Shown here piece by piece: positions 42,932 through 64,000 of a stretch of 64,000 bases of DNA (position 1 is its first letter; every line of letters starts with the position of its first letter). A model generated the notes under the pieces. That model had not been told where the DNA came from. It saw nothing but the letters and a program-made list of their open reading frames with translations, and ran no database searches. The DNA is from Anaerolinea sp. (GTDB lineage Bacteria > Chloroflexota > Anaerolineae > Anaerolineales > Anaerolineaceae): assembly GCA_020725865.1 (NCBI GenBank), contig DYEC01000003.1, positions 1-64,000 of the forward strand, given 5' to 3'. The position numbers and the translations under genes were made by a program.

Positions 42932-42958
42932 CAACAATTGCAACTTGAAAAGGAGACT

Positions 42959-48512: not shown

Positions 48513-50038
48513 AGGCTTTTTTGATGTACAAAGACCGCGATTTTGACCTGCATCAGAAACTGCCGGTCAACGCTGAAGATTTGACACAGGACCTTGAACT
48601 GAACACCCTGTTCAACGCAATGGCGCGGGGCGATAAATTTTTGCTGGAAGTGGCAAAGACGGCGGTGTTGTGCGGTGCAGACCATTCACCGGATGCCATC
48701 CTCTACCGGCAGGCGGTGCTCAAAGACTGTCTGAAAAACTCCGCTGTGGTGCGGGAAATCTACGCCATCGCCATCGAGGCATTAGAAAGGGAACGCAAAG
48801 TGTTCTGGGGCATCTTTAGCAAATATCCGGATGCCATCCTGCACCGCGCTGTCGAGGTGATGCTGATTTTTGTCGAATTGCTCAAACGGCTGAAAACGCT
48901 GGCAGAGAAACACGCTAACGAGTTTGACTCAGAGGGCTTTCGCACCTTCTTTGACATGATTAACCGCGAATTGAACGCCGAATACTTTGCCGTCATTCAG
49001 CATCATTTGCGCGAGCTGAAGTTCCGCGATGGGGTTCTCATTAGCGCCCGGCTGGGCAAAGGCAACCGCGGTGAGGATTACGTCCTGCGCAAACATACCG
49101 CTCAAAAGCGCAGTTTGGTGGAACGGGTTTTCTCCCGAAAGCCGCGCAGTTTTACCTTTTACATTGCCGAGCGCGATGAGAACGGCTATCGGGCGCTCTC
49201 GGAATTGAAGGATAGGGGCATTAATTTAGTTGCCAATGCGCTGGCGCAGTCCACCGAACACATTCTTAGTTTTTTCACCATGCTGCGTACCGAGCTGGCT
49301 TTTTACGTTGGCTGTCTAAACCTGCATGAGCAGCTCATTCAAAAGGGCGTTCCAGTTTGTTTCCCTCAGCCGGCGCCTGCCTATGAGCGCCGGCACAGCG
49401 GAAAGGAAATCCGTGACGTCTGTCTGGTTTTGACGCTGGAGCAGCCTGTGGTGGGTAACGACCTGAAAGCAGATGGTAAAAATCTGGTCATCATCACTGG
49501 TGCTAATCAGGGCGGCAAGTCCACCTTCCTGCGCGGCATTGGGCTGGCACAGTTGATGATGCAGTGCGGGATGTTTGTCACAGCTGAAGCGTTCTCATCC
49601 AATCTGTGTGATGGTTTCTTTACCCACTTCAAACGTGAAGAGGATGTTACCATGAAGAGCGGCAAACTGGATGAGGAATTAAGCCGCATGAGCAATATTA
49701 TTGACCAGCTGACACCTAACGCCATGCTGCTGTTCAACGAATCCTTTGCTGCAACCAACGAGCGCGAAGGCTCCGAGATCGCCCGTCAGATCATCAGCGC
49801 CCTGCTGGAAAAACGCATCAAAGTGTTCTATGTTACCCACCTGTACGATTTTGCCAGCCGCTTTTACCGCCTAGGACGGGAAGATGTCGTTTCACTACGC
49901 GCTGAACGGGGAGTAAACGGCGAACGAACTTTCAAACTGGTAGAAGGTGAACCTTTGCCCACCAGCTTTGGCAAAGATTTGTATGCCAGTGTGTTCGAGA
50001 ACACAAATTTATTTCTCTCTAGCTGCACCGATGAATAG
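48509..50038 (+). CDS. MutS-like ATPase, second of a tandem pair
   Basis: A 509-aa relative of the preceding protein. ATPase motifs: Walker A TGANQGGKSTFLRG (about 330-343), LMMQCGMFVTAEAFSSNLCD, FTHFKREEDVTMKSGKLDEEL, Walker B AMLLFNESFAATNEREG, and VFYVTHLYDF with the switch His. The helical core is highly charged. Like its partner it lacks the recognition domain. The paired genes are probably translated together. No neighbour ties them to a pathway; enolase upstream is separated by a hairpin. Confidence 0.82.
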   Translation: MKAFLMYKDRDFDLHQKLPVNAEDLTQDLELNTLFNAMARGDKFLLEVAKTAVLCGADHSPDAILYRQAVLKDCLKNSAVVREIYAIAIEALERERKVFWGIFSKYPDAILHRAVEVMLIFVELLKRLKTLAEKHANEFDSEGFRTFFDMINRELNAEYFAVIQHHLRELKFRDGVLISARLGKGNRGEDYVLRKHTAQKRSLVERVFSRKPRSFTFYIAERDENGYRALSELKDRGINLVANALAQSTEHILSFFTMLRTELAFYVGCLNLHEQLIQKGVPVCFPQPAPAYERRHSGKEIRDVCLVLTLEQPVVGNDLKADGKNLVIITGANQGGKSTFLRGIGLAQLMMQCGMFVTAEAFSSNLCDGFFTHFKREEDVTMKSGKLDEELSRMSNIIDQLTPNAMLLFNESFAATNEREGSEIARQIISALLEKRIKVFYVTHLYDFASRFYRLGREDVVSLRAERGVNGERTFKLVEGEPLPTSFGKDLYASVFENTNLFLSSCTDE

Positions 50039-50133: not shown

Positions 50134-50550
50134 CTACTCCCCCATAATCTGTACCACAATCTGCCGGTGGCGGGGGCGGATATCAAAATCTACATAGATG
50201 ATCTGCTGCCAGTCACCCAACGTCAGATGCCCTGAAACAAACGGTATGGTCAAATCGGCTTTCAGCAACGCCGCCCGCACATGGCTGTGCCCGTTGCCAT
50301 CGCCCCAGCGCGCATTGTGTTGATACGGGCGGTTAGGCGACACAATTTCGTCAAACAGGCGGCATAAATCGCTCAAAACGCCCGGCTCGTACTCAATCGT
50401 GGTCAGCGCGCTGGTTGAAGAAGGACAGAAAAGGGTTACGATGCCGTTTTTCAGTCCGCTCTTTGCCACAGCCTGCTCTACCTCGGCAGTGATGTCATGA
50501 ATATCCGCATTACCGCGCATGGATAACTTGAGATAGGTTGTCTGTACCAT
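50134..50550 (-). CDS. YjbQ/UPF0047 family protein
   Basis: A 138-aa protein of the YjbQ family, described as having weak thiamin-phosphate-synthase activity in one case but with no settled role. CPSSTSALTTIEYEPGVLSDL replaces the usual HTS segment; RWGDGNGHSHVRAALL and GDWQQIIYVDFDIRPRHR are conserved. ATG at 50550 with a GGTGG site; the frame open to 50721 overlaps the methyltransferase gene and is rejected. Last gene of the nucleoside cluster. A second family member lies at 59415-59828. Confidence 0.85.
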   Translation of the reverse strand: MVQTTYLKLSMRGNADIHDITAEVEQAVAKSGLKNGIVTLFCPSSTSALTTIEYEPGVLSDLCRLFDEIVSPNRPYQHNARWGDGNGHSHVRAALLKADLTIPFVSGHLTLGDWQQIIYVDFDIRPRHRQIVVQIMGE

Positions 50551-50552
50551 GG

Positions 50553-51251
50553 CTACACCACCTTTCCCCATACACCTGTCCATTCCGGCAACCGCGCCCA
50601 GCCATGCCGGCGTATCGCAGCCGCCAGTTCGCTGCCAAAGAAAAACTCTGTATAAGCAACTGCCTCTTCCACATTGGAAAACTGGTAATCCGTCTGGATT
50701 ACTTCGCGGCTGAACCCCCAATACTCTTCAATCCATTGATAATATTCCGCCAGTTCTTTGGTAGGCGGCGCCGGTATCAGGTTGCCAGTGGTCATAGTTT
50801 CGAGGATAATCATCGCGCCGCCCGAAGCAACAGCGCGGTGCATTTCTTCCAACACGTACCCAGTTTGCTGCTTCCAATCCGCAGCAAACCAGCCGCGCAA
50901 ATGACCAATCGCCCAACCGGCAATCACCACCTCCGCCCAACGGTCAGGCACAGGCAGCCACCGCATATCCGCCTGCACTAAATCCCAATTCCCCCCTACC
51001 CTGTCACGCTGAGCCTTCTGTTCCCGCAGCATCGCCCGGCTGAGGTCAAGCGCAAGCACCTGCGCAGCGCGCCCAGCGACCAATAGCGGGACGCGCCCGC
51101 TGCCGCTGCCAAGATCGAGCACCTTTTTACCAGCAAGCGGCGCAATCCGCTCCAGCGCAGGCAGCAAGTTGCCGTCCACATCCTCAACCGCTATCATACG
51201 ATGGTACTCAGCTGCCCGGGTGGCATAAATTTCTTCAAAGTGATCAGTCAT
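50553..51251 (-). CDS. SAM-dependent methyltransferase (class I)
   Basis: A 232-aa Rossmann-fold methyltransferase. Motif I KVLDLGSGSGRVPLLV near residue 43, motif II VLALDLSRAML, then NWDLVQADMRWLPVPD and AEVVIAGWAIGHL. The C-terminal half (EYYQWIEEYWGFSREVIQ) resembles small-molecule methyltransferases. It overlaps the PfkB-methyltransferase fusion gene by 4 bp. Substrate unknown; in this operon a base or nucleoside-derived compound is possible. Confidence 0.85.
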   Translation of the reverse strand: MTDHFEEIYATRAAEYHRMIAVEDVDGNLLPALERIAPLAGKKVLDLGSGSGRVPLLVAGRAAQVLALDLSRAMLREQKAQRDRVGGNWDLVQADMRWLPVPDRWAEVVIAGWAIGHLRGWFAADWKQQTGYVLEEMHRAVASGGAMIILETMTTGNLIPAPPTKELAEYYQWIEEYWGFSREVIQTDYQFSNVEEAVAYTEFFFGSELAAAIRRHGWARLPEWTGVWGKVV

Positions 51252-52753
51252 TTTTTCTCCGCTACTACCAGATAAAAATCCTGCTCATCGGCAAGTTCCA
51301 CCACCCGCCAGCCGCGCGCCTTTAGATTCTCCGCCAGTTCAGCCGCCGGAGGCAACTGATCTTTACGCAAAACAGCTTCGGCATGACCGGCGTGAATGGC
51401 ATTGACCTGTTCACGCCCAATCACGTGACTGATGACCAGCCGGCAATCCGGTGTCAAAACCCGCCAGAAGGCATCCAGCGCCAGATCGAAATCGGACAGA
51501 TGAGGAAACACTCCGTGACAAAAAACGGCTTGAATACTCTCTGCTGCCAGCGGCAGGGCTAACGCTTCCGCCTGCAAAGGCGAGAGCGCCGCATGTGTAA
51601 TGTTTCCGCGCAAACGCTGAAGCATGTGCCACGAAAAATCCAGCGCAATCACCCGTGCCGGATGATGCTCCAGCAAGACCTGGGTCAGATGCCCGGTACC
51701 ACATCCCACATCCAGCACACGATCGCCAACGCGTACATGCCCCGATGCGGCAATTCGCTCCAGTTTTCCCCTCATATCCGGCGGTATCGGCAGCGCACCC
51801 CAATTTGCCGCCATGCGGTCAAACACCCTGTGGCGCGGATTGGGAGACGACAGGTAATAATCCTGCAAACGCTTCTGCGCACGCTGACGTAACCCATTAA
51901 GAGAATACAGCGCGCCAAACTGCTCTAATGCAAAAGAAGCCGAAACTGCAGCCATACAACCAGCCCTGACGACATCATCATACTGAGCCATACCGGCAAT
52001 CAACCCGCCGCAGTATGCGTTGCCTGCGCCGGTGACATCCACAATGCGTTGCGGCTTTGCAGGTGGAAGATTTAATCGCAACCCTTCGCACGTTGCCAGC
52101 AAACTGCCTCGCTCCCCCATTCGCAATGCCAGCATCTGTACACCCCCCTCCAACATCCTTTCAGCGATTTTTTCAGGATCATCCAGCTGGGTCAACTGCT
52201 GACCTTCGCTCAAATTAGGTGAAACACAATTTGCCAACTGCGCCAAACGGCAGAAAAGCTGCCAGTTTTCAGCAATGCAGAAAGTATCCCACGGCTCCCA
52301 GAGGATGAAAGGATCAGCAAAACTGCGCAGGAATGCCACCCAAGCCTCTACCTGATCTGGCGAGCAATGTAGATGAATGCCCTTGAGCGAGCGGTACGTT
52401 TCAGGAAATTCCCGCGGAGTTGGGATTTGAGCCGCCATTTCCTCAAATGAAGTACGGAAAACCTCGTTGCGCGTCCCATCTAACTCAAAAAGCTGCCAGG
52501 CGCGCGGCGTCTTACAGGGGCGCGTCAGCACCCCCTGCAGGTCAAAATGCACCGCCAGGTCATCCCGCAACTGCGGTGGAAAATCCTTTCCTACCGCCGA
52601 AACGAGACCAACCCGATCCCACCAGACCCGCATTCCCATCACCGCATGGGTTGCACCGCCTCCCAGAGTCGCCATGCGGCTCTGACCGTCCGGCAGGATG
52701 ATGTCGTCAATAATGACAGAGCCGATTGAAATCAGCCACTCAAGCGAGTCCAT
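51248..52753 (-). CDS. PfkB-type kinase fused to SAM methyltransferase
   Basis: A 501-aa two-domain protein. Residues 1-300 form a PfkB (ribokinase-like) domain: SVIIDDIILPDG start, TLGGGATHAVMGMRVW, and VDVTGAGNAYCGG at about 238-250. In the anion-hole motif the usual catalytic Asp of GAGD is Asn (245). Residues about 320-501 are a class I methyltransferase with RVLDVGCGTGHLTQVLL (346 on) and VIALDFSWHMLQRL. ATG at 52753; the frame to 52921 overlaps the hydrolase gene and is rejected. Its kinase part is a clear paralogue of the protein at 55619-56569. Such a fusion suggests both reactions act on one metabolite. Confidence 0.85.
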   Translation of the reverse strand: MDSLEWLISIGSVIIDDIILPDGQSRMATLGGGATHAVMGMRVWWDRVGLVSAVGKDFPPQLRDDLAVHFDLQGVLTRPCKTPRAWQLFELDGTRNEVFRTSFEEMAAQIPTPREFPETYRSLKGIHLHCSPDQVEAWVAFLRSFADPFILWEPWDTFCIAENWQLFCRLAQLANCVSPNLSEGQQLTQLDDPEKIAERMLEGGVQMLALRMGERGSLLATCEGLRLNLPPAKPQRIVDVTGAGNAYCGGLIAGMAQYDDVVRAGCMAAVSASFALEQFGALYSLNGLRQRAQKRLQDYYLSSPNPRHRVFDRMAANWGALPIPPDMRGKLERIAASGHVRVGDRVLDVGCGTGHLTQVLLEHHPARVIALDFSWHMLQRLRGNITHAALSPLQAEALALPLAAESIQAVFCHGVFPHLSDFDLALDAFWRVLTPDCRLVISHVIGREQVNAIHAGHAEAVLRKDQLPPAAELAENLKARGWRVVELADEQDFYLVVAEKK

Positions 52754-53651
52754 CATACAACACCTGGTAAAAGCGCTCCCGGTCAATGTGAATTCCAACG
52801 TCTGCGTTGGCAGGCTGCCGATGATGACCGCTGACATCCGCCACCGTACGCCCGCGCGTCCACTGACCTTGCAGCTCAATACAAACACGCATGGGGCGGG
52901 TCTCGACCAGAGCAGGATCAATCACCGCCGCCACGGCGCAGGCATCAAAAATTTGCCCATCTACTCCCAAATGCTCACGAAACCAGTCTATCTCCCGCTG
53001 CATCAGTCGGGCAGCAATCTGCGCCTGCGGCGTCCCAAGTGCAAACGTTTTCTTAACCACTTCCTCACTGACCGGCGCCTGCGAGGTAACTTCAAGCCCA
53101 ATCATCGTGATTGGGATACCAGAAGAAAAGACAACCTGCGCCGCTTCTGGATCCGCCAGCACATTGAACTCTGCTGAAGGGGTGACATTTCCCTCCTGAT
53201 AAGCCCCTGCCATGGTAACGATGCGCGGGATGCGCTGCACCAGCCGGGGTTCAAGACGCAATGCCAGTGCCATATTAGTCTGCGGACCAACAGGCATATA
53301 AATTGTCTCAGTCCCATGCGGGCCAAGATAGTACGCTATTAAGAACTCTACCGCATGTTTTGGTTGAGCGCGCAGCGTGGACGGCGGAACAGGCAGGGTC
53401 TCGGATTGATACCGATGGGTCGGAATCGGCGGACCAATCAACGGGCTATGCGCACCAGCATAAACCGGAATATGCGCCAGACCGCCCGCCTGCATCACAC
53501 GCAGCGTATTGTCCAGCGTTACCGACAATGGCGCATTGCCGTGCGTCACTGTCACAGCCACCAGTTCCAGCGCCGGATGATGGCCCGCGAGTAGAATTGC
53601 CACAGCATCATCTCCACCGGTATCCACGTCCAAAATAACCTTTTGCGGCAT
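52740..53651 (-). CDS. Inosine-uridine-type nucleoside hydrolase
   Basis: A 303-aa nucleoside N-ribohydrolase (IunH/Rih family) that hydrolyses the glycosidic bond. Metal site: VILDVDTGGDDAVAILLA (DxDxxxDD at residues 8-15). TVTHGN, PVYAGAHSPL, IYMPVGPQTNMALAL, and the late DACAVAAVIDP with the last metal Asp follow. One of three paralogues in this cluster. The specificity of each is not readable from sequence. Confidence 0.93.
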   Translation of the reverse strand: MPQKVILDVDTGGDDAVAILLAGHHPALELVAVTVTHGNAPLSVTLDNTLRVMQAGGLAHIPVYAGAHSPLIGPPIPTHRYQSETLPVPPSTLRAQPKHAVEFLIAYYLGPHGTETIYMPVGPQTNMALALRLEPRLVQRIPRIVTMAGAYQEGNVTPSAEFNVLADPEAAQVVFSSGIPITMIGLEVTSQAPVSEEVVKKTFALGTPQAQIAARLMQREIDWFREHLGVDGQIFDACAVAAVIDPALVETRPMRVCIELQGQWTRGRTVADVSGHHRQPANADVGIHIDRERFYQVLYDGLA

Positions 53652-53653
53652 CG

Positions 53654-54487
53654 CTAGTTACCCTTGTTTACACTGGCAGTAACAACTCTCTCCATAAAGT
53701 CAGCAATGAGTCCTTCATCCCATTCCTCCAGCAATCCCTGACGTGTCCAACCACCGCTGGCTTTAAACGCCGTGCTGACGATGACGCCATCTGCATATTG
53801 AGCAAAACGACCAATGTTCTCCGCTGTTGCCCCGCCACCCAACAACAGTGGTACACCCAAACCCGCAGAACGCACCTCTCCCAGCATCTGTAACGACTCG
53901 TCCGGCGACAAACCGGTCAATATCAAACCATCAGCACGACCAAAAACTGCCGCCTGACGCGCTTCCTCGACCAGCGGGCGGCGCCCGAGCGGTTCGCCTG
54001 TGCGGTCATATACATCTGCCAGAATTTGGATATCCTCCGCCTCAAGCTGCGCCCGGTACTGAATCGCCTCATACGCACAACCCTGTAGGATGCCTTCTGC
54101 CTTGACCATTGCGCCAACATAAACTTTCAGCCGTACAAACTGCGCTCCAATCGCCTGTGCAACCGCCAGCGGCTCGCGCGCGCCGTGGCTCATCATGCAC
54201 ACACCCAGCGTCAGATCAGGAAACTCCCGCCGCAGTGCCGCCCCGACCACCGATAACGCCGCTACAGTGTGAGGTTGAATTGAAGGTGCCAATGGCGTGT
54301 CTGCGGTATCCTGAATATACAGCGCCCTCACACCGGCACACCAGGCTTTTTTTGCATTGCGTAAAGCATGCGCCACCGCTGCATCAATCGGCTGAGCAGA
54401 CGGATGGTGCGAACCCGGCAATGGCGGCAGATGGAGCGCGGCAATCACCTCCAGCCTGCCGCGCTCAAATAGGTGTGGAGCGCTCAT
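53654..54487 (-). CDS. BtpA/SgcQ-family TIM-barrel protein
   Basis: A 277-aa TIM-barrel protein of the BtpA family (PF03437 type). Seen: EVIAALHLPPLPGSHH, GVRALYIQDTADTPL, LGVCMMSHGAREPLAVA, AQFVRLKVYVGAM and GADGLILTG-type segments with LLLGGGATAENIGRFAQYADGVIVSTAFK ending as a phosphate-binding loop. The name comes from a photosystem I biogenesis factor, but most members sit in sugar or nucleoside operons and probably act on a phosphorylated sugar. ATG at 54487 overlaps the SIS gene stop (ATGA). Confidence 0.85.
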   Translation of the reverse strand: MSAPHLFERGRLEVIAALHLPPLPGSHHPSAQPIDAAVAHALRNAKKAWCAGVRALYIQDTADTPLAPSIQPHTVAALSVVGAALRREFPDLTLGVCMMSHGAREPLAVAQAIGAQFVRLKVYVGAMVKAEGILQGCAYEAIQYRAQLEAEDIQILADVYDRTGEPLGRRPLVEEARQAAVFGRADGLILTGLSPDESLQMLGEVRSAGLGVPLLLGGGATAENIGRFAQYADGVIVSTAFKASGGWTRQGLLEEWDEGLIADFMERVVTASVNKGN

Positions 54488-55635
54488 GGCTTCTTCCAGG
54501 AAGTCCAAATCTCACTGGTACGAATGCGGCTGATCCCGCCGCCGCCCTCAGTGCTGCGTCCACCGGTAAAATTCCTGAAAAACGGCTCACCAATCACATC
54601 CGCCCGGTGAGCAGCAAACAGCTCACCCGGAACTGCAGCAATCAGGGGTGAAAACATTTCGGCAACACGGGCAATTGGCAGCAAGCCGTCTGCCAGCTCG
54701 ACCAGTTCAGCAGCATCTTTCGGTGCAACTACCGCCAGACGACGTCCGATAGTCTTTGCCGCCACCGCAGCCTCAAGTGCTCGCGAGTAATCACGATCCG
54801 CAGCGGTGATGATAAACGTAGGTGTATCCACTGCGCGGGCAAAGTACTGCAAATGACACCATTCTTCAGTTTCCTGTCCGAGAGCAGGATCACCCGAAGC
54901 CTCCAGCACCTTTGCCGCTGAGAACAGCGCCGTGGCAAAATTCGGTCCGCCGCCAACGAAAACAAATTCTGCGGCATCTTTCCAATCCTTCGCCAGCTTC
55001 AGTGCGGCATCATCGCAGTCAGCAATCGTCTGCTCCAGCGCATCTGCCAGTCCAAAAATTTGTCTGCGCACCGCGCCGGCATCCGCCGAAGATAACACAC
55101 CGCGCACTTCGCCCAAACGAACCGCCATTAAAAGAAGCGCAACCTGATTGGCAAAATACGAGCGAACGCCGGGGATATGTTGATCAGGCGGGTCCTGGAA
55201 AGGCGGCGTCGGCACCAAAAGAGTATGCTGAGCGACGGTGGTTACCCGGCTACCGGGTGTGGCAGTCAGCGCCAGCGTGGTGGCTCCAGTTTCATTTGCC
55301 ATCGTCAACGCCTCCGCCGTGCGTGCCACTTCCCCCGAAACCGAAATACCGATCACCAGATTCGTCTTTGGGCCGGTTTGCGGGATAAAACCGGCTGCAT
55401 AGCGGGCAAACTGCTGAGCTGTCATCGGTTCGGTTGGGATACCGGCAAGCGCTTCAAACGCCAGTTCGCTGCCTAAAGAAGCATGATGCGAATCACCACA
55501 CCCGGTAACAAACAAACGCTTTACCGAAAGGCACAGTTCATGATTGAGTGTGCTGCGTACCGCTTCATCTAATGGATCAAAAATCTCTCTCAATTGAGCG
55601 GGTAAACTACGCACCTGATTAATCATGCCGTTCAT
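54484..55635 (-). CDS. SIS-domain sugar isomerase/deaminase-like protein
   Basis: A 383-aa protein with two SIS (sugar isomerase) domains. SIS1: KRLFVTGCGDSHHASLGSEL then LVIGISVSGEVARTAEAL; SIS2: EFVFVGGGPNFATALFSAAK and the EWCHLQYFARAVDTPTFI region. These resemble the isomerase half of glucosamine-6-phosphate synthase and related deglycases. The start at 55635 has GAGGAGG at ideal spacing. It probably isomerises a phosphorylated sugar released in the pathway. Confidence 0.85.
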   Translation of the reverse strand: MNGMINQVRSLPAQLREIFDPLDEAVRSTLNHELCLSVKRLFVTGCGDSHHASLGSELAFEALAGIPTEPMTAQQFARYAAGFIPQTGPKTNLVIGISVSGEVARTAEALTMANETGATTLALTATPGSRVTTVAQHTLLVPTPPFQDPPDQHIPGVRSYFANQVALLLMAVRLGEVRGVLSSADAGAVRRQIFGLADALEQTIADCDDAALKLAKDWKDAAEFVFVGGGPNFATALFSAAKVLEASGDPALGQETEEWCHLQYFARAVDTPTFIITAADRDYSRALEAAVAAKTIGRRLAVVAPKDAAELVELADGLLPIARVAEMFSPLIAAVPGELFAAHRADVIGEPFFRNFTGGRSTEGGGGISRIRTSEIWTSWKKP

Positions 55636-56569
55636 AAAAAACCTCCTCAATAAATAAATTTTCGACATTATCCCGAAGCGCAGCCAACCGTTTTTGGGCT
55701 TCTGCGCGTATTTCATCCGTTACTACTGGAACACTAACCTGCTCAACCGCAAACGAAGCCGCCACACAGCCGTATAAGCCAGCAGTGCGCAGATCGCCGC
55801 TCTCCACCCAGCCAACTAGAAAACCACCGCAGAACGCATTCCCAGCGCCGACGGGGTCAATCACCTGAACTGGAACAGCCGGTATATGATATGCCACACG
55901 CTCTCCGCGCCGTGCAACCAACGCACCCTGTGCGCCCATACGCAGCGCCGCAACCTCCACCCCGTTTGCAAGCAAGCCTTTTAGCAATGCCAGCGGTTCG
56001 TCTCGCCCAAGCAGTGAAGTTGCCTCTTCAATATTGGGCGAGAAGATGAGTGCTGCTTCCAGTAGTTCTCTTAATTCTCTGGGATCCGGCAAACGTTCAG
56101 CAGGCTTAAACGGCTCAATGCTGACCACCCCGCCCAGTTGACGCAGCTCTGCAATGAAACCCAAGTCGGCTTCCAGTGGGTGCACTCCCAGATGGAAGCC
56201 TCGCGCCTGACGATAGGTTTGTGGCAGGTAATCCAGCTTGCGGGTTAACTGAGCACCAATCGCCACACTTGATACTCGCCAGACCTGTGTGCGCCGCCCA
56301 TTCTCCTCTAATACCTGCCAGGCGCGCGGGGTTGGAAAATTTGTCAGACGTACACCAGTAGTATCTATCCCGCTGGTGCACAGCCAATCCATTGCCACCA
56401 AGGGAAGGTCTGCGCCAACACCCGCCACCAGTCCGACTGACTCCGACCATAATCGCATCCCAAACGCCGTCTGCACGCCACCGCCGCCAAGTACGCCCAT
56501 GCGCGTCTGACCGTCCGGAAAAACAATATCATCTAGAATGATGCCAAACGTCACATAATCAACTGACAT
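55619..56569 (-). CDS. PfkB-type carbohydrate kinase with Asn in the catalytic motif
   Basis: A 316-aa ribokinase-like protein. TFGIILDDIVFPDGQTRMG start, VLGGGGVQTAFGMRLW, and IDPVGAGNAFCGGFLVGW at 237-254. The expected catalytic Asp of GAGD is Asn at 244. It aligns closely with the kinase half of the fusion protein at 51248-52753, including the shortened N-terminus. ATG at 56569 with GAGGAAG upstream; TGATG overlap with the preceding kinase. May have altered chemistry or be a non-catalytic paralogue. Confidence 0.85.
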   Translation of the reverse strand: MSVDYVTFGIILDDIVFPDGQTRMGVLGGGGVQTAFGMRLWSESVGLVAGVGADLPLVAMDWLCTSGIDTTGVRLTNFPTPRAWQVLEENGRRTQVWRVSSVAIGAQLTRKLDYLPQTYRQARGFHLGVHPLEADLGFIAELRQLGGVVSIEPFKPAERLPDPRELRELLEAALIFSPNIEEATSLLGRDEPLALLKGLLANGVEVAALRMGAQGALVARRGERVAYHIPAVPVQVIDPVGAGNAFCGGFLVGWVESGDLRTAGLYGCVAASFAVEQVSVPVVTDEIRAEAQKRLAALRDNVENLFIEEVFYERHD

Positions 56570-57486
56570 CAAACTTCCTCCCCCTGCTGTGTCAGGAAAC
56601 GCTCTACTACGACGCGGTCGGGCAAGCCGCCACGAGCGCCCAGCGCCTGAACAGAAAGCGCAGCCGCCGCGCTGGCAAAGCGCAAACAACGCCGCAATTC
56701 CCAATTTTCTAACCAGCCGACCAGAAAAGCAGCATGAAAACAGTCGCCGGCGCCTGTCGTATCTACCACTGGCACTTGAAATGCGGGATGTTGACAAAAT
56801 TCGTCTCGTGTAGCTGCGACAGCGCCGGACGCTCCCAAGGTGACAACCACCGCATGGATACCGATCTCAAGCAATTTCCGCACACCAGCCTCAAGCGAGT
56901 CGCTACCGGTAGCCAATTTCAACCCATCTCGGCTGAAAAAAGCCACGTCACTGTTGCGCAGTGCAGCATCAAGATCAGCCCCTTTGACCGGGCAGCTTCC
57001 TTCTACATCCACAATCACCTGCCCGCCGCCCGAATGCACCGCTCGGCTGAAACGTTCAAACCAATTCGGCGCGCGCGGCAAGGTATACCCCAGACGCGAG
57101 AGTGACAAAGCCTTCAATATATCCGCTGTCAAAGGCGGTTCGGAAAAGTTAGAAACAATCAGTATCGTGCGCTCACCGCCCGGCGTAAGCAGGATAACCG
57201 TGAAATCGCTGTTTGTTCCCTGTACACTAACCGCGTACCGGCTATCTACACCAAAGCGGGCAAAATCCTCCAACACCAGCCGCCCGAAATCGTCATCACC
57301 CAGATAACCGCTCCAGCCGACTTGAAGCCCAAGCCGCGTTGCTGCGCAGGCTGTGTTTGCCACCAGCCCGCCGGGCAAACACCCGGCAAAAGCTGTTTCC
57401 AGTTTTTCATCCAGCAATGGCAGGCGCGGCACACGCAGCATCAGGTCAACCGCCGAACCGCCCAGACAGAAGAGATCGTAAGTCAT
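56569..57486 (-). CDS. PfkB-type sugar/nucleoside kinase
   Basis: A 305-aa ribokinase-family protein with all catalytic elements: [18 protein letters not shown] start, [18 protein letters not shown] substrate-binding glycine pair, and [18 protein letters not shown] with an intact GAGD. Ribokinase, nucleoside kinase or adenosine-kinase-like functions are all possible. It overlaps the upstream nucleoside hydrolase gene by 4 bp. Confidence 0.9.
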
Positions 57487-58409
57487 CGCAGTGTTTTGTA
57501 GAGTGTCTCCTTCCAGAGCGGGATGTCAATCTCCCAGCATACCTCGATATTGGGCGGCTTATTCAATACACCAAGCTGATCTACTACCGTCATACCGCGT
57601 GTCAATTCACTGGCAGTTTCCACATCCACATAGTGTTTGCTTTTGCGCGTGCATACTGCCGGGTCCAATGCAATAGCCATGGTCACCGGATCTGGCAATG
57701 GCAGGAAAGGATCATGCAGCCATTCCTGATTGGTAATAATCGCCTGACGATTACAGTCAATGGCAAAATCCGCATATACCGTGCCGAACGAACGTACGTA
57801 TTCAATATCCTCCTTGTCAAGGTTTGCCTTGCCACGGCAAAGTTCCCAACCCACCATTGTCACAGGCAGTCCGGAATGAAACACCATGCGCGCCGCTTCA
57901 GGATCTACCCAGATATTGTATTCTGCCGCCGGCGTGATATTACCCACCGTGCAGGCTGCTCCTCCCATGGTGTAACATTGTGGAATCTTCTCTGCCAGAT
58001 CGGGCGCTAATTGCAAAGCCGCGGCAATATTAGTGAGAGGTCCAAGTGTGACTAAAGTAATTTCACCTGGGTGTGCCCGAACAACTTCAATCAACGCCTC
58101 AACGGCATGTTGCTTTGCCGGCGGGCGCTTAGGCTGGGGATAATTCATTCCACCCATCCCATCGGGACCATGAAAGAAAAACGCGTAATGCGGCTCGCGC
58201 AAATAAGGACGTGCCATGCCCTCGTAAACGGGGGTTTCTTTACCGCACAACTCGACCGTATAACGTGCATTGACACTGCACATCTCTAAAGGTACGTTGC
58301 CAACCACCACTGAGATACCCTCAACATGAACATCGGGCCAACGCAGTGCCATCAAAATTGCCACAGCATCATCTGAAGCTGTATCGGTATCAATCCAGAA
58401 ACGACGCAT
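57483..58409 (-). CDS. Nucleoside hydrolase (second paralogue)
   Basis: A 308-aa IunH-family protein. Metal motif [18 protein letters not shown] (DTDTASDD) is a variant form; [35 protein letters not shown], and [12 protein letters not shown] follow. AAGGAG site 7 nt before ATG. The DTASDD loop differs from the two sister hydrolases, hinting at different substrate preference. Confidence 0.92.
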
Positions 58410-58467
58410 TCTTCACTCCTTTCCACTGACGAGGCAACGGGATGCCAGCACCACGGGTGAATCTTAC

Positions 58468-59400
58468 TTACCTCGTCAATCGTTCTTCGATCAGTGCCAA
58501 AACACCCGGTGCGTCCACCTCCACGCAAACAGAGACCGGAGGACGTTGACCAAGCTGCCGGCGCCGGTCGGCAATTGTTTGACCAAAACCATACCCACTG
58601 GTCTCGACATACACTGGCACCTCTTCCACCTTAAACAATTCGGGATCAAGCACGTATGCCAGCGCAGAAGGGTCGTGTGTATGAATATCGCCGCCCATGC
58701 CATACGCCTGATCATGATACCTCTGATAGCACGGCAAAATTGAGCGCAACAGATGCCCCGCCGGATTATTCGCTGCTTTGATTTTGTCCAGATACTGTCG
58801 GGTTTGAATCACCTTGAGCGTCACATCCAGCCCAACCATTACCAGCGGCAAACCTGCACTGAAAACAATTTCGGCAGCGTGCGGGTCGTGAAAGATATTC
58901 GCTTCCGCTACTGGGGAAATATTTCCGCCTGCGCCGATAGAACCGCCCATGATCACCACCTGTTCGACCAGTTCAACAATGCGCGGTTCAAGGCGCAGTG
59001 CCAGCGCTACGTTCGTCAGAGGGCCCACTGCCAGCAGTGTCACCTGACGGGGATTATCCAGCACCTTTTGGGCAATAAATTGTGCCGCTGAAATGTCCAG
59101 CCATTTCCCTTTTGGCAATGGAGGATTGGTATTTCCCATTCCATCCTCACCATGAACCATCGTCCCCAGCATTTGCGCTTCAACTACCAGTCCGCGGTCG
59201 CTGCCGCGCGCCACCGGAATATTGTCATTGCCTTCCAGTTCTACCAGCCGCAATGCATTCTGCGCCGTGGCGTAACCGCTAGCATTCCCAAATATGCTGG
59301 TCAAACCGATTACTTCCAGTTCTGGCGAACGTAATGCTGCCAGTATCATCATGGCATCATCCACGCCGGGGTCGGTATCAACGATCACCTTTTTTCGCAT
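58468..59400 (-). CDS. Nucleoside hydrolase (third paralogue)
   Basis: A 310-aa IunH-family protein with canonical KVIVDTDPGVDDAMMILA (DTDPGVDD), TSIFGNASG, MVHGEDGMGNTN, LLAVGPLTNVALAL and IHTHDPSALAYVLDP containing the fourth metal ligand. The ATG at 59400 has GAGGTG 6 nt upstream; the upstream in-frame extension to 59445 overlaps the YjbQ gene. A 58-nt gap separates it from the next hydrolase. Confidence 0.93.
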   Translation of the reverse strand: MRKKVIVDTDPGVDDAMMILAALRSPELEVIGLTSIFGNASGYATAQNALRLVELEGNDNIPVARGSDRGLVVEAQMLGTMVHGEDGMGNTNPPLPKGKWLDISAAQFIAQKVLDNPRQVTLLAVGPLTNVALALRLEPRIVELVEQVVIMGGSIGAGGNISPVAEANIFHDPHAAEIVFSAGLPLVMVGLDVTLKVIQTRQYLDKIKAANNPAGHLLRSILPCYQRYHDQAYGMGGDIHTHDPSALAYVLDPELFKVEEVPVYVETSGYGFGQTIADRRRQLGQRPPVSVCVEVDAPGVLALIEERLTR

Positions 59401-59414
59401 CCTGTCACCTCGCT

Positions 59415-59828
59415 TCAGCTTAAATCTGGCATCACCCGCACCCAAACCTCACGAGAACGCGGACCGTCAAATTCACAAAACAAAATGCTTTGCGAACCGC
59501 CTAATAGCAGTCTGCCTTCAGACACCATTAACATTATGCTTGTGCCAATCAGGGTGGATTTGATATGCCCGGCGGCATCGGCAGGCGTGTCAAACGTATG
59601 ATGAAAATCCACACGGGTCGGCACCAAACGCCGCAGCTCAGAAAGAATGTCTAACGAGGTATTTGGATCAATTGCCGAGTTGACTGTTAAAGCGGCAGTG
59701 GTATGTGGAACAAAAAGAAAACAAATTCCTTCCTTGACACCGCTTGCCTGCACCGCAGCATTCACTTGCTTGGTAATATTCACCAACGTTTCATCAGGCG
59801 GGGTCTGCAATGTAATCTTTGTAAACAA
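59415..59828 (-). CDS. YjbQ/UPF0047 family protein (second copy)
   Basis: A 137-aa YjbQ-family protein with the conserved FLFVPHTTAALTVNSAIDP and HHTFDTPADAAGHIKSTL, then LLLGGSQSILFCEFDGPRSR. The start is TTG with GGAG 6 nt upstream; no better codon is available. It lies between a kinase and a nucleoside hydrolase. This copy keeps the HTT residues altered in the copy at 50134. Confidence 0.85.
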   Translation of the reverse strand: MFTKITLQTPPDETLVNITKQVNAAVQASGVKEGICFLFVPHTTAALTVNSAIDPNTSLDILSELRRLVPTRVDFHHTFDTPADAAGHIKSTLIGTSIMLMVSEGRLLLGGSQSILFCEFDGPRSREVWVRVMPDLS

Positions 59829-59841
59829 TGAACTCTCCTTT

Positions 59842-60804
59842 CTATGTCAAAAACGGGACCTGCACATTGAACACCTGCAATAATTCTTGAACTTCCCGCA
59901 ACGTTGCTACCTGCCGGCCCGAGCCAAGCTTGCGTACTTTTGCCGCCCCAACTGCATTGGCAAAGGCTACAACCTGCTCCGCCTGCCAGCCATGTAAGTA
60001 GCCATAGAGAAAGCCGGCAGCAAACGAATCACCGGCAGCTGTCGTATCCCGCACGGTCACCGGATAGCCGGGATGCTCAACTTGCTTGTCTGCAGTGCAC
60101 AACATACACCCTTTGGCACCGCGCTTAACACATACCAGTTCAGGACCGCGGCGCATAATCTCCTGCACACCTTCCAGACCCTGCAAGCCGCCACTCAGCA
60201 AGGGAATCTCTTCCTCCGTCAGTAAGACACCGCTACAATGGGCAAGTACTTCAACCAACCGGGGCTGCTCGATGGCTGCAACATAAGGTCCTGGATCGAA
60301 AAAAACCGGACATCCGGCAGAGCGGGCAAATGCCATGCCATCCACCATCGCCTGGCTCAACCGCTCCTCTTGTAGCGTGTACCCCCAGGCAATCATCGCA
60401 TCCGCCGAGCACAACACTTCCCGCCAGTCCTCTGAAAACACAACCAGAGAACCCTGACCATACTGTCCAAGAAAGACATGTTGACCCTGTTCGTCAACCA
60501 AAACCAGAACGGTAGTGGTTGTACCATCTGGCTGACGCAACGCATGATCGGTGTTCACACTCTCAGCCCTCAGCGCCTGCATGGTCAAATTTCCAAACTC
60601 ATCTGCGCCCACTACTCCTAACGCTTGCATATTCATCCCAAGCCGGGCGCCGGCAATAAGGAAATTTCCTGCCCCGCCCGGTTCAATTTGTATACTCCGC
60701 ACAATCTGGTGTTGCCCGGCGACAACTGGCAGACGCTGGATCGTTACCACCATGTCCGCCACCAGGTCGCCAAAGGAAACCACACAAGGCTGCTTTTCCG
60801 TCAT
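59842..60804 (-). CDS. PfkB-type sugar/nucleoside kinase
   Basis: A 320-aa ribokinase-family protein: VVSFGDLVADMVVTIQRLP start, IEPGGAGNFLIAGARLG, and RDTTAAGDSFAAGFLYGY in which the first Gly of GAGD is Ala while the catalytic Asp is kept. The ATG at 60804 is favoured (AAGG 8 nt upstream) over a TTG at 60825. Probably phosphorylates the sugar or nucleoside handled by the adjacent hydrolases. Confidence 0.9.
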   Translation of the reverse strand: MTEKQPCVVSFGDLVADMVVTIQRLPVVAGQHQIVRSIQIEPGGAGNFLIAGARLGMNMQALGVVGADEFGNLTMQALRAESVNTDHALRQPDGTTTTVLVLVDEQGQHVFLGQYGQGSLVVFSEDWREVLCSADAMIAWGYTLQEERLSQAMVDGMAFARSAGCPVFFDPGPYVAAIEQPRLVEVLAHCSGVLLTEEEIPLLSGGLQGLEGVQEIMRRGPELVCVKRGAKGCMLCTADKQVEHPGYPVTVRDTTAAGDSFAAGFLYGYLHGWQAEQVVAFANAVGAAKVRKLGSGRQVATLREVQELLQVFNVQVPFLT

Positions 60805-60828
60805 GGATTGCCTTAACACCTCCAACTT

Positions 60829-61821
60829 TCAAAGCGATTCAAGAAGTTTCAATGCCACAACCCGAAGATCAGCGTCCAGCGTCCTGTTTCCTAAATCGCT
60901 CAAATAAGCCAGCACTGCCTCCCGCCCTGGCATACTCATCCCGGCTCCCCAAGTCGTGGCAGCCAGCGCCCCAAGCGCTCCTGCTAGACCGGCACATAGA
61001 AAGGCATCCCAACCTCTCAACCAGCCATAGATCAAACCGGCGCAAAACGCATCGCCAGCACCTGTGCTGTCTACTGCCCGTACCGGAAAAGCAGGCAAAC
61101 GGACAGAATACTTTTGATCTGCCACCAGACAACCCTCTCGCCCCAGCTTTAAGCCTGCCATACGAACGCCACGCTCCAGCAAGCAGGCAACAATAGCTTG
61201 TGGCTCACTCAGCCCAAATGCAAAATTTGCCTCCTCGACCCCTAAAACGCACAACGAGAGATGAGGCAACAGCCAACGCACTTCTTCAGCACAATGACGC
61301 GCTGGTTCGCTCATCAAGTCCAGGCTGATCGGGATGCTGCGCTCTTCTGCCAGTGACACCGCCCGCCAAAGCGCCTCTCGCTGGGGAGCATCCAGCAGGG
61401 CATATGCCGAAAGCTGTAGTAAAACCGCATCGTCAAATAACTCCGCGGGAATCGTCTCGGCTCGCAACAAACCATTTGCACCGCGGCAGGAAAACATCGT
61501 GCGCTCGCCGTCCGGTGTTATAGCGATAAAGGCAATGCCGGTTGCGACTTGCGGGTTGCGCTGAACTCCTATTAGATTGATGCCCATTGCCTCCAGATCC
61601 GGCAAAATTGCTTGTGCCCAGATATCCTGTCCAATACAGGCAATCAAAGCGGCAGACACTCCAAAGCGCCTCAAGGTGATCGCTGTGTTACAGATACCGC
61701 CCCCAATGGACGTGACCAGGCGGCTGGCAAGACCATCCCCGCCTGGTTTGGGCAGATCACCCATTAACTGTAAAATCGCATCCAGGTTGATGTCTCCCAG
61801 CAAAACAACACGCCCGCTCAT
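60829..61821 (-). CDS. PfkB-type sugar/nucleoside kinase
   Basis: A 330-aa ribokinase-family protein with VVLLGDINLDAILQLMG start, TSIGGGICNTAITLRRFG, and VDSTGAGDAFCAGLIYGW intact. ATG overlaps the stop of the TrpF-like gene (ATGA). The KPGGDGLASR stretch and the G-rich loop resemble ribokinase/ADP-dependent nucleoside kinases. Fifth kinase domain of the cluster in map order. Confidence 0.9.
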   Translation of the reverse strand: MSGRVVLLGDINLDAILQLMGDLPKPGGDGLASRLVTSIGGGICNTAITLRRFGVSAALIACIGQDIWAQAILPDLEAMGINLIGVQRNPQVATGIAFIAITPDGERTMFSCRGANGLLRAETIPAELFDDAVLLQLSAYALLDAPQREALWRAVSLAEERSIPISLDLMSEPARHCAEEVRWLLPHLSLCVLGVEEANFAFGLSEPQAIVACLLERGVRMAGLKLGREGCLVADQKYSVRLPAFPVRAVDSTGAGDAFCAGLIYGWLRGWDAFLCAGLAGALGALAATTWGAGMSMPGREAVLAYLSDLGNRTLDADLRVVALKLLESL

Positions 61822-62504
61822 GCCAACCCCAACTCCCTGGCAGCCCGGCGCGCGGCTTTCACAAATTCAGCTACCCGGCGCAGGTCTTTAGCAACAGGAT
61901 CACCGGGTAGATTGGTAGCCGTATTCGAATCAACCCCCCAAGGGCGGACTACAGCGATCGCTTCCGCTACATTCTCCGGGCTTAAGCCGCCTGCCAGAAT
62001 AACCGGTACCGGCACAGCATCCACAATCCGGCGGCTGATGCGCCAGTCATGTGCCTGCCCCGTGGCACCCACGCCCGGTAAGCCGCTGACCTTTGTGTCT
62101 AAAAGCAACAGATCGCAAACCTCTGCAAAACGTAATGAAATCTCAATACTCTCTTCACCGATCACTGGAATGGCTTTCATCAATCCAATGTCTTCTGGCA
62201 AGCGGCGGCGCAATTCAGCCATTGCTTCCAACCCAACTGCTTCCAGGTCGCTGGAGACATGGACGATGTCCGGCTGAACAGCCTCAGCCATGCGCAAAAT
62301 CTCTTCGACATCCGAGGACATAGTCAACGCCACCAAACGCGCCTGTGGCGGGAGGGCTTCGCTAATCTGCCGCGCTTCAACAAAATCCAATTCGCCGTAC
62401 ACCTCGCCATAGCGGCCAGCAACCACGCCAATATGATCAACACCTGCTTCAACGGCAGCAAGTGCATCTTTCAGATGGGTAAAAGCATAAACTTGAACAA
62501 TCAT
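61818..62504 (-). CDS. TrpF-like TIM-barrel protein (not a tryptophan enzyme)
   Basis: A 228-aa protein resembling phosphoribosylanthranilate isomerase in its C-terminal half: CDLLLLDTKVSGLPGVGATG, then VPVILAGGLSPENVAEAI and the phosphate-binding loop PWGVDSNTATN. At the N-terminus the catalytic Cys segment (usually KICG) reads QVYAFT, so the normal general base is missing. No trp gene is nearby. It probably acts on another phosphoribosyl or sugar phosphate compound. Confidence 0.8.
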   Translation of the reverse strand: MIVQVYAFTHLKDALAAVEAGVDHIGVVAGRYGEVYGELDFVEARQISEALPPQARLVALTMSSDVEEILRMAEAVQPDIVHVSSDLEAVGLEAMAELRRRLPEDIGLMKAIPVIGEESIEISLRFAEVCDLLLLDTKVSGLPGVGATGQAHDWRISRRIVDAVPVPVILAGGLSPENVAEAIAVVRPWGVDSNTATNLPGDPVAKDLRRVAEFVKAARRAARELGLA

Positions 62505-63829
62505 GCCGGATAAAACGCTATTCTCCTGCCCGGAACGCGCTGGTTGAGACGCTCCAGGCGTTGGGCAATCTCCTGCTTAACGCGGGCTTTATCTATCGTG
62601 AGCAGTTGCCGCTCACGCATCAATACCTTGCCAGCACAGATGACTGTATCTACATCTGATGCACGAGAAGAATAAACCAGATTCGCCGCCGGGCTATAAC
62701 GCGGAAAGACATGGACGCCATCCTGGCGCAAGAGAGCAATATCCGCCAGTTTGCCGGTCTGCAAATCGCCAACCCGATCTCCCATTCGCAGCACCTGCCA
62801 GCCACCATGAAACGCAATCTCAAGCACTTCATCTACCGGCATTACCGTCGGGTCTTGTGCCAGATGCTTCTGCGTTAACGCCAGTAAACGTGCCTGTTCA
62901 TACAGGTCAAGCGTATTATTGCTAGCTGCCCCATCACTGGCAAGTCCAATCGGTATACCGGCAGCGCGCAGTTTGTTCAGTGGGGCGGTTCCCATGCCAG
63001 CCTTCATATAAGTTTTGGGAGCTTGCGCAATACCGGTCGGTGCATCTGCGAGAATCTGAATGTCTTCATCGGTCGGAAAGAGACAATGCGCCAGTATTGT
63101 GGGAACGTCCAGCACACCAGTATCTTTCAACATCCGCACCGGCGTTACACCGTATTCTCTCAAACTGAGCTGTACCTGCTCCAGTGTCTCGGAAACGTGA
63201 ATGTGGATTCCAACACCCAACTCGCGGGCTTTTTTCGCCGAAAGACGCAGAAAATCCGGACCGGTGGTATAGGGTGCATGGGGACCCAACCAGGTGACAA
63301 TCCGACCGCCTGCTACCCCCTGCCAGCGGCGGACAAAATCCACCGTCGCATTCAGTTTTTCCTCTCCTTCATGCCCAAACACTGCCCAGACCAGATTGGC
63401 GCGCATGCCCGAATCGCGCACTGCCTCGGCAACCTGGTCCATAAAAAAGTAATGATCTGCAACTGCCGTGATTCCGCTCTCAATCATCTCGGCAATACCC
63501 AGTAATGCCCCCCAATAGACATCTTCCGGGGTCAGATTCGACTCAAGCGGGAAAATATAATCATTGAACCAGGAAGCCAAGGTGACATCTTCTACCAACC
63601 CGCGAAACAACACCATCGGCACATGGGCATGGGTATTCGCTAGCCCGGGCACCGCCAGCAATCCCTTCGCGGGTAAAACCTCTTTCGCATTGGCAGGGTT
63701 AATGGAGCCTGCAGAGGTAATTTGATTAATGATGCCATCACGAATGGCTATATCCTGATTAAGCTCTATGGTCGTCTGTCCCCTATCCAGACGTAAAATA
63801 TCACATCCCTGTATCAGCAGGTCAATCAT
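62501..63829 (-). CDS. Amidohydrolase, MtaD/SsnA-type deaminase
   Basis: A 442-aa metal-dependent hydrolase. VPGLANTHAHVPMVLFRGL (HxH metal pair), GIHIHVSETLEQV, ILAHCLFPTDED and LASDGAASNNTLDLY (metal Asp) match the 5-methylthioadenosine/S-adenosylhomocysteine deaminase and related guanine/cytosine-type deaminases. It may deaminate a nucleoside or free base upstream of the hydrolases. ATG overlaps the stop of the next gene upstream (ATGA). Confidence 0.88.
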   Translation of the reverse strand: MIDLLIQGCDILRLDRGQTTIELNQDIAIRDGIINQITSAGSINPANAKEVLPAKGLLAVPGLANTHAHVPMVLFRGLVEDVTLASWFNDYIFPLESNLTPEDVYWGALLGIAEMIESGITAVADHYFFMDQVAEAVRDSGMRANLVWAVFGHEGEEKLNATVDFVRRWQGVAGGRIVTWLGPHAPYTTGPDFLRLSAKKARELGVGIHIHVSETLEQVQLSLREYGVTPVRMLKDTGVLDVPTILAHCLFPTDEDIQILADAPTGIAQAPKTYMKAGMGTAPLNKLRAAGIPIGLASDGAASNNTLDLYEQARLLALTQKHLAQDPTVMPVDEVLEIAFHGGWQVLRMGDRVGDLQTGKLADIALLRQDGVHVFPRYSPAANLVYSSRASDVDTVICAGKVLMRERQLLTIDKARVKQEIAQRLERLNQRVPGRRIAFYPA

Positions 63830-64000
63830 CCCCGCCTCCGCACCAGGTCAAATAATCCCTGTGCCACCATATCAAAATCCAACGCCGGATTGGCCGCCTT
63901 GAGTTGCTGGACAATGAATGGTTCAAAGGCTTCGATGCCTTTCCATGCGCCAGCAATTGCACAAGCCATTGCCCCAACTGTATCCGCATCGCCCGACAAA
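63826..64000 (-). CDS. ADP-ribosylglycohydrolase family, C-terminal end (cut by window edge)
   Basis: The last 57 codons are visible: LSGDADTVGAMACAIAGAWK near the start of the fragment carries the GDADT metal-binding motif of ADP-ribosylglycohydrolases (DraG/ARH family). The final part is ordinary helical sequence, ending at a TGA that overlaps the amidohydrolase ATG. Members remove ADP-ribose or hydrolyse N-ribosyl bonds, consistent with the nucleoside theme. The start lies outside the window. Confidence 0.85.
   Translation of the reverse strand, partial: LSGDADTVGAMACAIAGAWKGIEAFEPFIVQQLKAANPALDFDMVAQGLFDLVRRRG

Follow-up and report, generated by a model that had tools for sequence, protein, structure and literature searches.

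A probable nucleoside-scavenging and sugar-catabolism operon with exchangeable branches in Anaerolinea sp.

Catabolism of nucleosides by a nucleoside hydrolase and a ribokinase, together with a Bmp/PnrA-type importer, is a known general theme. A run of genes in Anaerolinea sp. (assembly GCA_020725865.1, contig DYEC01000003.1, here C1) shares with this theme its IunH nucleoside hydrolases, ribokinase (RbsK), Bmp-type ATP-binding cassette (ABC) transporter and GntR regulator. The run adds further members to it: there are four IunH, five further PfkB-family kinases, a SIS protein, a BtpA-family barrel, a TrpF-like barrel, YjbQ proteins, an ADP-ribosylglycohydrolase (ARH) and methyltransferases. 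We know of no settled physiological role for the UPF0047/YjbQ and BtpA families. The stretch analysed, called the window here, comprises the first 64,000 bases of the 72,758-base contig. The run lies on the minus strand and has 23 genes in 22.3 kb (C1 50134-72463; all coordinates given for its genes are on that strand), 16 of them wholly or partly inside the window. We consider it to be a regulated operon for nucleoside scavenging and sugar catabolism (probability about 0.7), every step being assigned from protein family and gene context.

Transcription order begins with the GntR-UTRA regulator, ribokinase, IunH4, the Bmp-type binding protein, the ABC ATPase, two permeases and ARH. It continues with the amidohydrolase, the TrpF-like barrel, PfkB5, PfkB4, YjbQ2, IunH3, IunH2, PfkB3 and PfkB2, and ends with SIS, BtpA, IunH1, the PfkB1-methyltransferase fusion, a second methyltransferase (MT1) and YjbQ1. 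A preliminary description of the window had proposed nucleoside salvage or degradation, and had suggested looking to the right for a transporter and a regulator. The Bmp-type ABC transporter and the GntR-UTRA regulator are found there and support the proposal; the ribokinase and the fourth IunH are also among these seven further genes, and the contig ends 295 bases beyond the regulator. All the families that the description named are present above Pfam cut-offs: three IunH, five PfkB, BtpA, SIS and phosphoribosylanthranilate isomerase (PRAI), as well as two UPF0047/YjbQ, the amidohydrolase, ADP_ribosyl_GH and two methyltransferase domains, one fused to PfkB and one separate. Its count of sixteen genes holds if the ARH gene, which is cut by the window edge and starts at contig 64842, is included. 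Its statement that the genes mostly overlap by 4 bp is too strong: with the starts of the longest open reading frames (ORFs), exact 4-bp overlaps occur at five of the 15 junctions (51248, 57483, 61818, 62501 and 63826). The other junctions are four gaps (2, 3, 13 and 58 bp) and six longer overlaps that depend on the choice of start. The true starts of YjbQ1 and PfkB2 are probably inside their ORFs.

A whole-genome search finds four IunH genes, all within this run: IunH1 (52740..53651; PF01156, 270 bits), IunH2 (57483..58409; 316.8 bits), IunH3 (58468..59445; 302.4 bits) and IunH4 (contig 69821-70756; above the PF01156 cut-off). By eye, all four translations have near the N-terminus the DxDxxxDDA motif that marks IunH nucleoside hydrolases. 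The closest solved relative of IunH2 is the purine nucleosidase 3t8i; all four proteins are below the NCBIfam equivalog cut-offs of the four models compared (RihA, RihB-type, RihC and UriH). The amidohydrolase (62501..63829; PF01979, 200.9 bits) has methylthioadenosine/S-adenosylhomocysteine (MTA/SAH) deaminases as its closest solved relatives (4f0r, TM0936), and is below the NCBIfam equivalog cut-offs of MTA/SAH deaminase and its relatives (best 383.4 of 609, with 25 of 31 families shown). The binding protein (contig 68668-69729) is nearest to Lbp and TmpC, the latter presumably a purine-nucleoside receptor. RbsK (contig 70753-71673) scores 364.1 bits with TIGR02152 (cut-off 299.65) and is the sole core enzyme that exceeds a curated equivalog cut-off. 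NCBIfam models were compared with 20 proteins of the run (all except MT1, YjbQ2 and one permease), and among the hits shown a cut-off is passed only by the ribokinase and by YjbQ1, the latter with a hypothetical-equivalog model; the substrates are therefore not readable from names.

In the scheme that we propose, nucleosides would be imported by the Bmp-type ABC transporter (ATPase, contig 67057-68616; permeases, contig 65933-67060 and 64951-66108), and the GntR-UTRA protein (contig 71675-72463) would control the run. The amidohydrolase would deaminate adenosine-type nucleosides, the four IunH paralogs would split different N-nucleosides into base and free ribose, and RbsK would convert the ribose to ribose 5-phosphate. 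On side branches, PfkB4 (59842..60825; PF00294, 160.4 bits) or PfkB5 (60829..61821; 148.1 bits) would phosphorylate nucleosides that IunH does not split or sugars that it does not set free; in some relatives PsuG, which cleaves pseudouridine 5'-phosphate, stands next to the PfkB. Two further sets, one an Asn-type PfkB together with SIS and BtpA and the other a pair of TrpF-like barrel and PfkB, would be sugar-phosphate isomerization branches. ARH (contig 63826-64842, its 3' end in the window at 63826..64000; PF03747, 190.1 bits) may release ribose from ribosyl conjugates. The roles given to YjbQ2, PfkB1, PfkB2, SIS, BtpA, the TrpF-like barrel and ARH are hypotheses. IunH, PsuG, PNP and ARH all belong to families that cleave ribose bonds, which supports nucleoside and ribosyl catabolism with exchangeable branches.

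Gene contexts in relatives were taken from six-frame ORFs and phmmer searches (E up to 1e-5) with the window proteins, and later PsuG and PNP of locus L209, as queries, and these searches detect only genes that resemble the queries. The counts given here are of genes, not genomes, include the window's own copies and ignore kinship. The closest counterpart, L040 in an Anaerolineae assembly, has 16 of the 23 genes in identical order at 45-73% identity: thirteen of the window's sixteen, the ATPase and the two permeases. PfkB2 and IunH1 are missing from it, a PurD gene (L040 15067-16386) separates PfkB1 from the methyltransferase, and its contig begins within the ATPase gene, so that the regulator end is out of view. 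Since the order is kept at such identity, chance is not plausible as the source of the cluster. MT1, of the S-adenosylmethionine type (50553..51251; PF08241, 47.4 bits), has an ortholog, 58% identical, at the corresponding end of the L040/L222 cluster. The kinase of the PfkB1 fusion (51248..52921; PF00294, 67.5 bits; C-terminal methyltransferase, PF08241, 64.9 bits) is unfused in the relatives examined.

IunH2-like matches are present in 230 of the 396 genomes of the class. From the 29 best IunH2 loci outside the window (59-71% identity), 20 were examined as wide stretches (for at least two, the contig is shorter than 10 kb), and ten families were counted besides IunH (PfkB, SIS, BtpA, ARH, TrpF-like, YjbQ, amidohydrolase, Bmp, PsuG and PNP). 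At least three of these are found in six stretches, which represent six families of the class, at least two in nine, and a single one in one. Further versions of the cluster are seen in L226 and, across six families of the class, in L202, L205, L209, L213, L215 and L219. The order Bmp-ABC-ARH-PfkB4-YjbQ2-IunH3 is common to L219, L226, L266, L267 and L269, five genomes of one family. The preliminary description had suggested searching genomes for at least six of its families together; of the relatives examined, only L040 and genome G525 (L226 with L227, where the amidohydrolase is) have them, and none of the 20 wide stretches does. The cluster genes are often together and also often apart, so that the conserved co-occurrence is supported in part.

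The modules PsuG, PNP and YjbQ are optional and swap places between genomes. In eight genomes, PsuG (Pfam-confirmed in L209 and L045) and an IunH gene are no more than 1.5 kb apart: PsuG is near IunH2 in 7 of 30 loci and near an IunH3-like gene in G661. In L209 it sits between PfkB4 and IunH3, where the window has YjbQ2, and two PNP-type genes, one Pfam-confirmed, stand at the end of that cluster. L045 has the order BtpA-SIS-PfkB5-PsuG, L277 and L279 combine PNP, YjbQ2, SIS and an Asn-type PfkB, and L215 has an adenine deaminase gene. IunH, TrpF-like and PfkB genes adjoin one another in L041 and in L055 (Atopobium), and in L055 an energy-coupling factor (ECF)-type transporter, assigned by eye, is also next to them. 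L274 (3979-6087) and L277 (9576-11717) encode, next to YjbQ2, SIS and PfkB, proteins of about 700 amino acids whose N-terminal part is an ADP-ribosylglycohydrolase domain; in L277 a second such protein is next to the first, as judged by eye.

The TrpF-like barrel (61818..62504; PF00697, 70.4 bits) is modeled with high confidence (predicted local distance difference test, pLDDT, 93.5) and is closest to Thermotoga TrpF 1nsj (TM-score 0.82/0.91). Cys is the catalytic residue of TrpF; here it is replaced by Tyr, and the catalytic Asp is kept. Among rows sorted by score, Tyr occupies this position in each of the first 38 that extend over it (one more row lacks it); five rows with Ala and 67 with Cys follow below, and the Asp is present in all 111. 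Of the 38 Tyr rows, 28 have a PfkB hit no more than 1.2 kb away, versus 0/67 Cys and 0/5 Ala rows, where weak PfkB hits from 25 bits are counted and four loci contribute two genes each. The ten Tyr rows without a near PfkB are L037, L038, L135-L138, L045, L142, L145 and L047, and in L045 a PfkB is present farther away. The preliminary description had the sugar phosphate converted by isomerase or TIM-barrel steps. The TrpF-like barrel, paired with PfkB and lacking the catalytic Cys of TrpF, may take part in such a step. The window genome (contamination 4%) has no other PF00697 match and no TrpA match, for which the control gave 14/14; with the catalytic Cys lost as well, a tryptophan enzyme is rejected for the window. 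Four genomes of one family have a Tyr-type gene plus a second, distant match, in one case with an internal stop, which is probably ordinary TrpF. In L037 (10001-10693) and L038 (10001-10675) the Tyr-type gene is located among genes that by eye belong to histidine metabolism.

Both YjbQ proteins pass the Pfam cut-off of 27 with PF01894: YjbQ1 (50134..50721) scores 118 bits, and 103.9 bits with TIGR00149 (cut-off 67.75), and YjbQ2 (59415..59828) scores 130.1 bits. YjbQ2 is of a type, called S-type here, in which Ser replaces the Glu of the HTTAxxTxNE motif, SQ replaces WQ and a short insert is present. The acidic position of the motif is Ser in 16 rows including YjbQ2, Glu in 41 and Asp in one. 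A cluster gene lies within 1.5 kb in 16/16 S-type loci, the window's own included, versus 0/42 of the others (Fisher's p 1e-14, kinship ignored). None of the 28 further YjbQ loci typed, from the upper matches of a search of the phylum, is S-type. A plain thiamine-phosphate synthase is disfavored for YjbQ2, though not more than that, as the Glu that ordinary YjbQ proteins keep is lost.

The catalytic Asp is kept in four of the PfkB kinases, as GAGD in PfkB3 (56569..57486; PF00294, 170 bits) and PfkB5 and as AAGD in PfkB4 and RbsK. PfkB1 and PfkB2 (55619..56797; 93 bits) have GAGN, with the Asp lost and the Pfam family cut-off still reached. A tree of 85 rows (score at least 70, 230-400 amino acids, no masked residues) divides the six PfkB proteins of the run, RbsK included, among five groups. 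One clade (support 100/98), which includes PfkB1 and PfkB2, has 24 rows, and in 22 of these Asn replaces the catalytic Asp; the two Asp rows (G579 and G410) are nested, and the tree requires at least two changes. Simple decay is disfavored, since the Asn is kept in 22/24 rows. The Asn-type PfkB may resemble fungal MAK32. In ketohexokinase the corresponding Asp is taken as the base (PMC2651755), so binding, not phosphorylation, may be the function of the Asn-type proteins. The plant FLN proteins have no fructokinase activity and a different change, GSGD (PMC9698557). Members of the PfkB4 clade mostly adjoin ARH and YjbQ2, or PsuG in L209, and PfkB5 groups with the PsuG-adjacent PfkB of L045 and with PfkB5 of L040.

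The SIS protein (54484..55716; PF01380, 52.9 bits) resembles the isomerase part of GlmS: it matches TIGR01135 over positions 252-591 of 607, and the GlmS glutaminase domain is absent. Glu and His residues 16 positions apart, which we take to be functional residues of a GlmS-type isomerase, are found in 25 of 26 aligned rows, some of them near-duplicates; the remaining row is a fragment. BtpA (53654..54508) scores 143.9 bits with PF03437 (cut-off 30) and 150.7 with the TIGR00259 subfamily, just below its cut-off of 153.4. Its structure was modeled with low confidence (pLDDT 69.3) from two sequences, the partly masked BtpA of L045 being excluded. The neighbors of the model are dihydropteroate synthase, TrpA and ribulose-phosphate epimerase, and suggest a TIM barrel of the phosphate-binding kind and nothing more specific. 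A second, distant BtpA, 26% identical, is encoded on contig C9 of the window genome G000 (161492-162190).

Several observations weigh against a nucleoside-scavenging operon. No IunH lies within 1.5 kb in any of the 29 BtpA loci outside the window, and in 15 of them (L019, L021-L034) a PfkB5-like neighbor is the only cluster gene within that distance. In a genome of the same family, L125 (5300-18400) has GntR, a Bmp ABC transporter, two PfkB2, three SIS and BtpA, and no IunH. Judging by these loci, other sugars may be the substrates of BtpA, SIS and part of the PfkB proteins; SIS and BtpA moreover adjoin a sugar-type ABC transporter in L121 and, by eye, an ECF-type transporter in L120. None of the ten families is found in 10 of the 20 wide IunH2 stretches. 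The genome is 99.03% complete with 4.01% contamination, and with such contamination the contig may not belong to the genome bin. The run has 53.5% G+C versus 49.6% in the first 50 kb of the window, and a close IunH2 is absent, in the class-wide search, from ten genomes of the same family; these two facts allow transfer or misbinning. They would also fit a pile-up of paralogs without one function, perhaps from another genome, which we regard as highly improbable: L040 keeps the order at the identities given above, and the modules recur across many genera. A further point against the operon reading is that one permease, the ATPase and the binding protein each score best, among NCBIfam families, with a 'putative B6 transporter' model. 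These hits, the model that YjbQ1 passes, which is named secondary thiamine-phosphate synthase, and the presence of ARH would suit salvage of a vitamin or precursor (B6 or thiamine moieties) or of NAD/ADP-ribose. This is very unlikely, as the scores of the transporter parts fall far short of the cut-offs, YjbQ2 lacks the Glu of ordinary YjbQ, and Pfam scans of all 23 proteins show no other vitamin-type family.

The preliminary description had proposed one pathway dedicated to a single unusual or modified nucleoside. The whole order kept in L040, and three subfamilies with changed active sites that suggest a special substrate, speak for such a pathway, yet the modules are optional and trade places, the TrpF-like barrel is in none of the 20 wide IunH2 stretches, and six PfkB in five tree groups fit several substrates better; this part of the proposal is weakened, and we find it unlikely. 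TrpF chemistry is an Amadori rearrangement, FrlB is a SIS protein and FrlD a PfkB. Catabolism of ribosylamines or of glycated (Amadori-type) compounds, in which a PfkB phosphorylates, the TrpF-like barrel and BtpA rearrange and a GlmS/FrlB-like SIS frees the amine, would draw on these precedents, on the spaced Glu and His of SIS and on PurD inside the L040 cluster. We rate it as rather improbable, for the TrpF-like barrel is without the catalytic Cys and the IunH, PsuG and PNP neighbors point to nucleosides. The nucleoside-scavenging operon could, tentatively, include an undescribed ribosyl-phosphate route, in which a PfkB kinase (PfkB4) would phosphorylate a nucleoside or pentose not released by IunH, S-type YjbQ would then cleave a ribosyl-phosphate bond as PsuG does in relatives, and SIS, BtpA and the Asn-type PfkB, and the Tyr-type TrpF barrel, would isomerize the sugar phosphate; we hold this to be doubtful. 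It builds on an exchange of YjbQ2 for PsuG seen in a single gene order (L209), and on neighborhood counts. The window genome also encodes PsuG elsewhere, on contig C10, where no neighboring PfkB was detected, so YjbQ2 is unlikely to be the sole means for pseudouridine. If true, the route would provide the first physiological roles for a UPF0047 subfamily, for BtpA and for a TrpF-derived enzyme that is not TrpF.

Elsewhere in the window, a PNP/UDP-family phosphorylase gene (42938-43741, plus strand) stands beside a phage-type integrase gene (41951-42931), about 6 kb from the cluster. Two neighboring plus-strand genes (46980-50038) encode proteins of about 510 amino acids whose sole match is to MutS domain V. 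A Cas3 homolog (3202-5595) and a Cas10/Cmr2 homolog (13765-15588) represent components of type I and type III CRISPR systems. An L-fucose-isomerase-type gene (27399-28805) and an FGGY kinase gene (34059-35555) form a second sugar-catabolism stretch. Rfam at gathering thresholds and ARAGORN gave no match in the window.

Literature searches, which covered few subscription papers, found nothing for Anaerolineae with nucleoside hydrolase; the only match for nucleoside hydrolase with ADP-ribosylglycohydrolase and PfkB concerns an alga, and the only one for BtpA with nucleoside hydrolase concerns effectors. Most titles listed for SgcQ or BtpA are about other things named BtpA, one paper (PMC11433714) contains both names, and YjbQ is in no title or abstract among the matches listed.

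Pseudouridine catabolism, in which PsuK acts before PsuG (PMC9247573), shares a PfkB-family kinase with the run, and PsuG is inside the cluster in L209 and L213; the window run differs in being without PsuG, with YjbQ2 in the place that PsuG has in L209. The haloarchaeal non-carboxylating pentose bisphosphate pathway (PMC9700705) likewise takes ribose from nucleosides and uses a PfkB-type kinase and an isomerase. The NCBIfam model on which PfkB4 scores best is that of the ribose 1-phosphate kinase of this pathway, but a score of 130 falls far short of the cut-off of 330. The run also has hydrolases instead of a phosphorylase, and Pfam scans of its 23 proteins gave no ribose 1,5-bisphosphate isomerase family. 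YjbQ2 shares its sequence family with ordinary YjbQ/UPF0047 proteins, including nine solved relatives, and differs from them in its Ser, insert and SQ and in its kinase and SIS neighborhoods. The TrpF-like barrel shares the fold and catalytic Asp of phosphoribosylanthranilate isomerase, but has Tyr for Cys and a PfkB partner, and in its genome neither TrpA nor a second TrpF was found. It still passes the PRAI Pfam cut-off, so that automatic annotation to the tryptophan pathway can mislead. The active-site changes in YjbQ and TrpF coincide with PfkB and often nucleoside-hydrolase neighbors, which gives concrete candidate substrates. Compared with these systems, the core of import, deamination, hydrolysis and ribokinase, as judged from families, appears ordinary in kind, and the branches appear new in composition. 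Three subfamilies with a changed active-site residue (TrpF-like, YjbQ2 and Asn-type PfkB) seem to be new here, and may stand for new chemistry in some of the steps.

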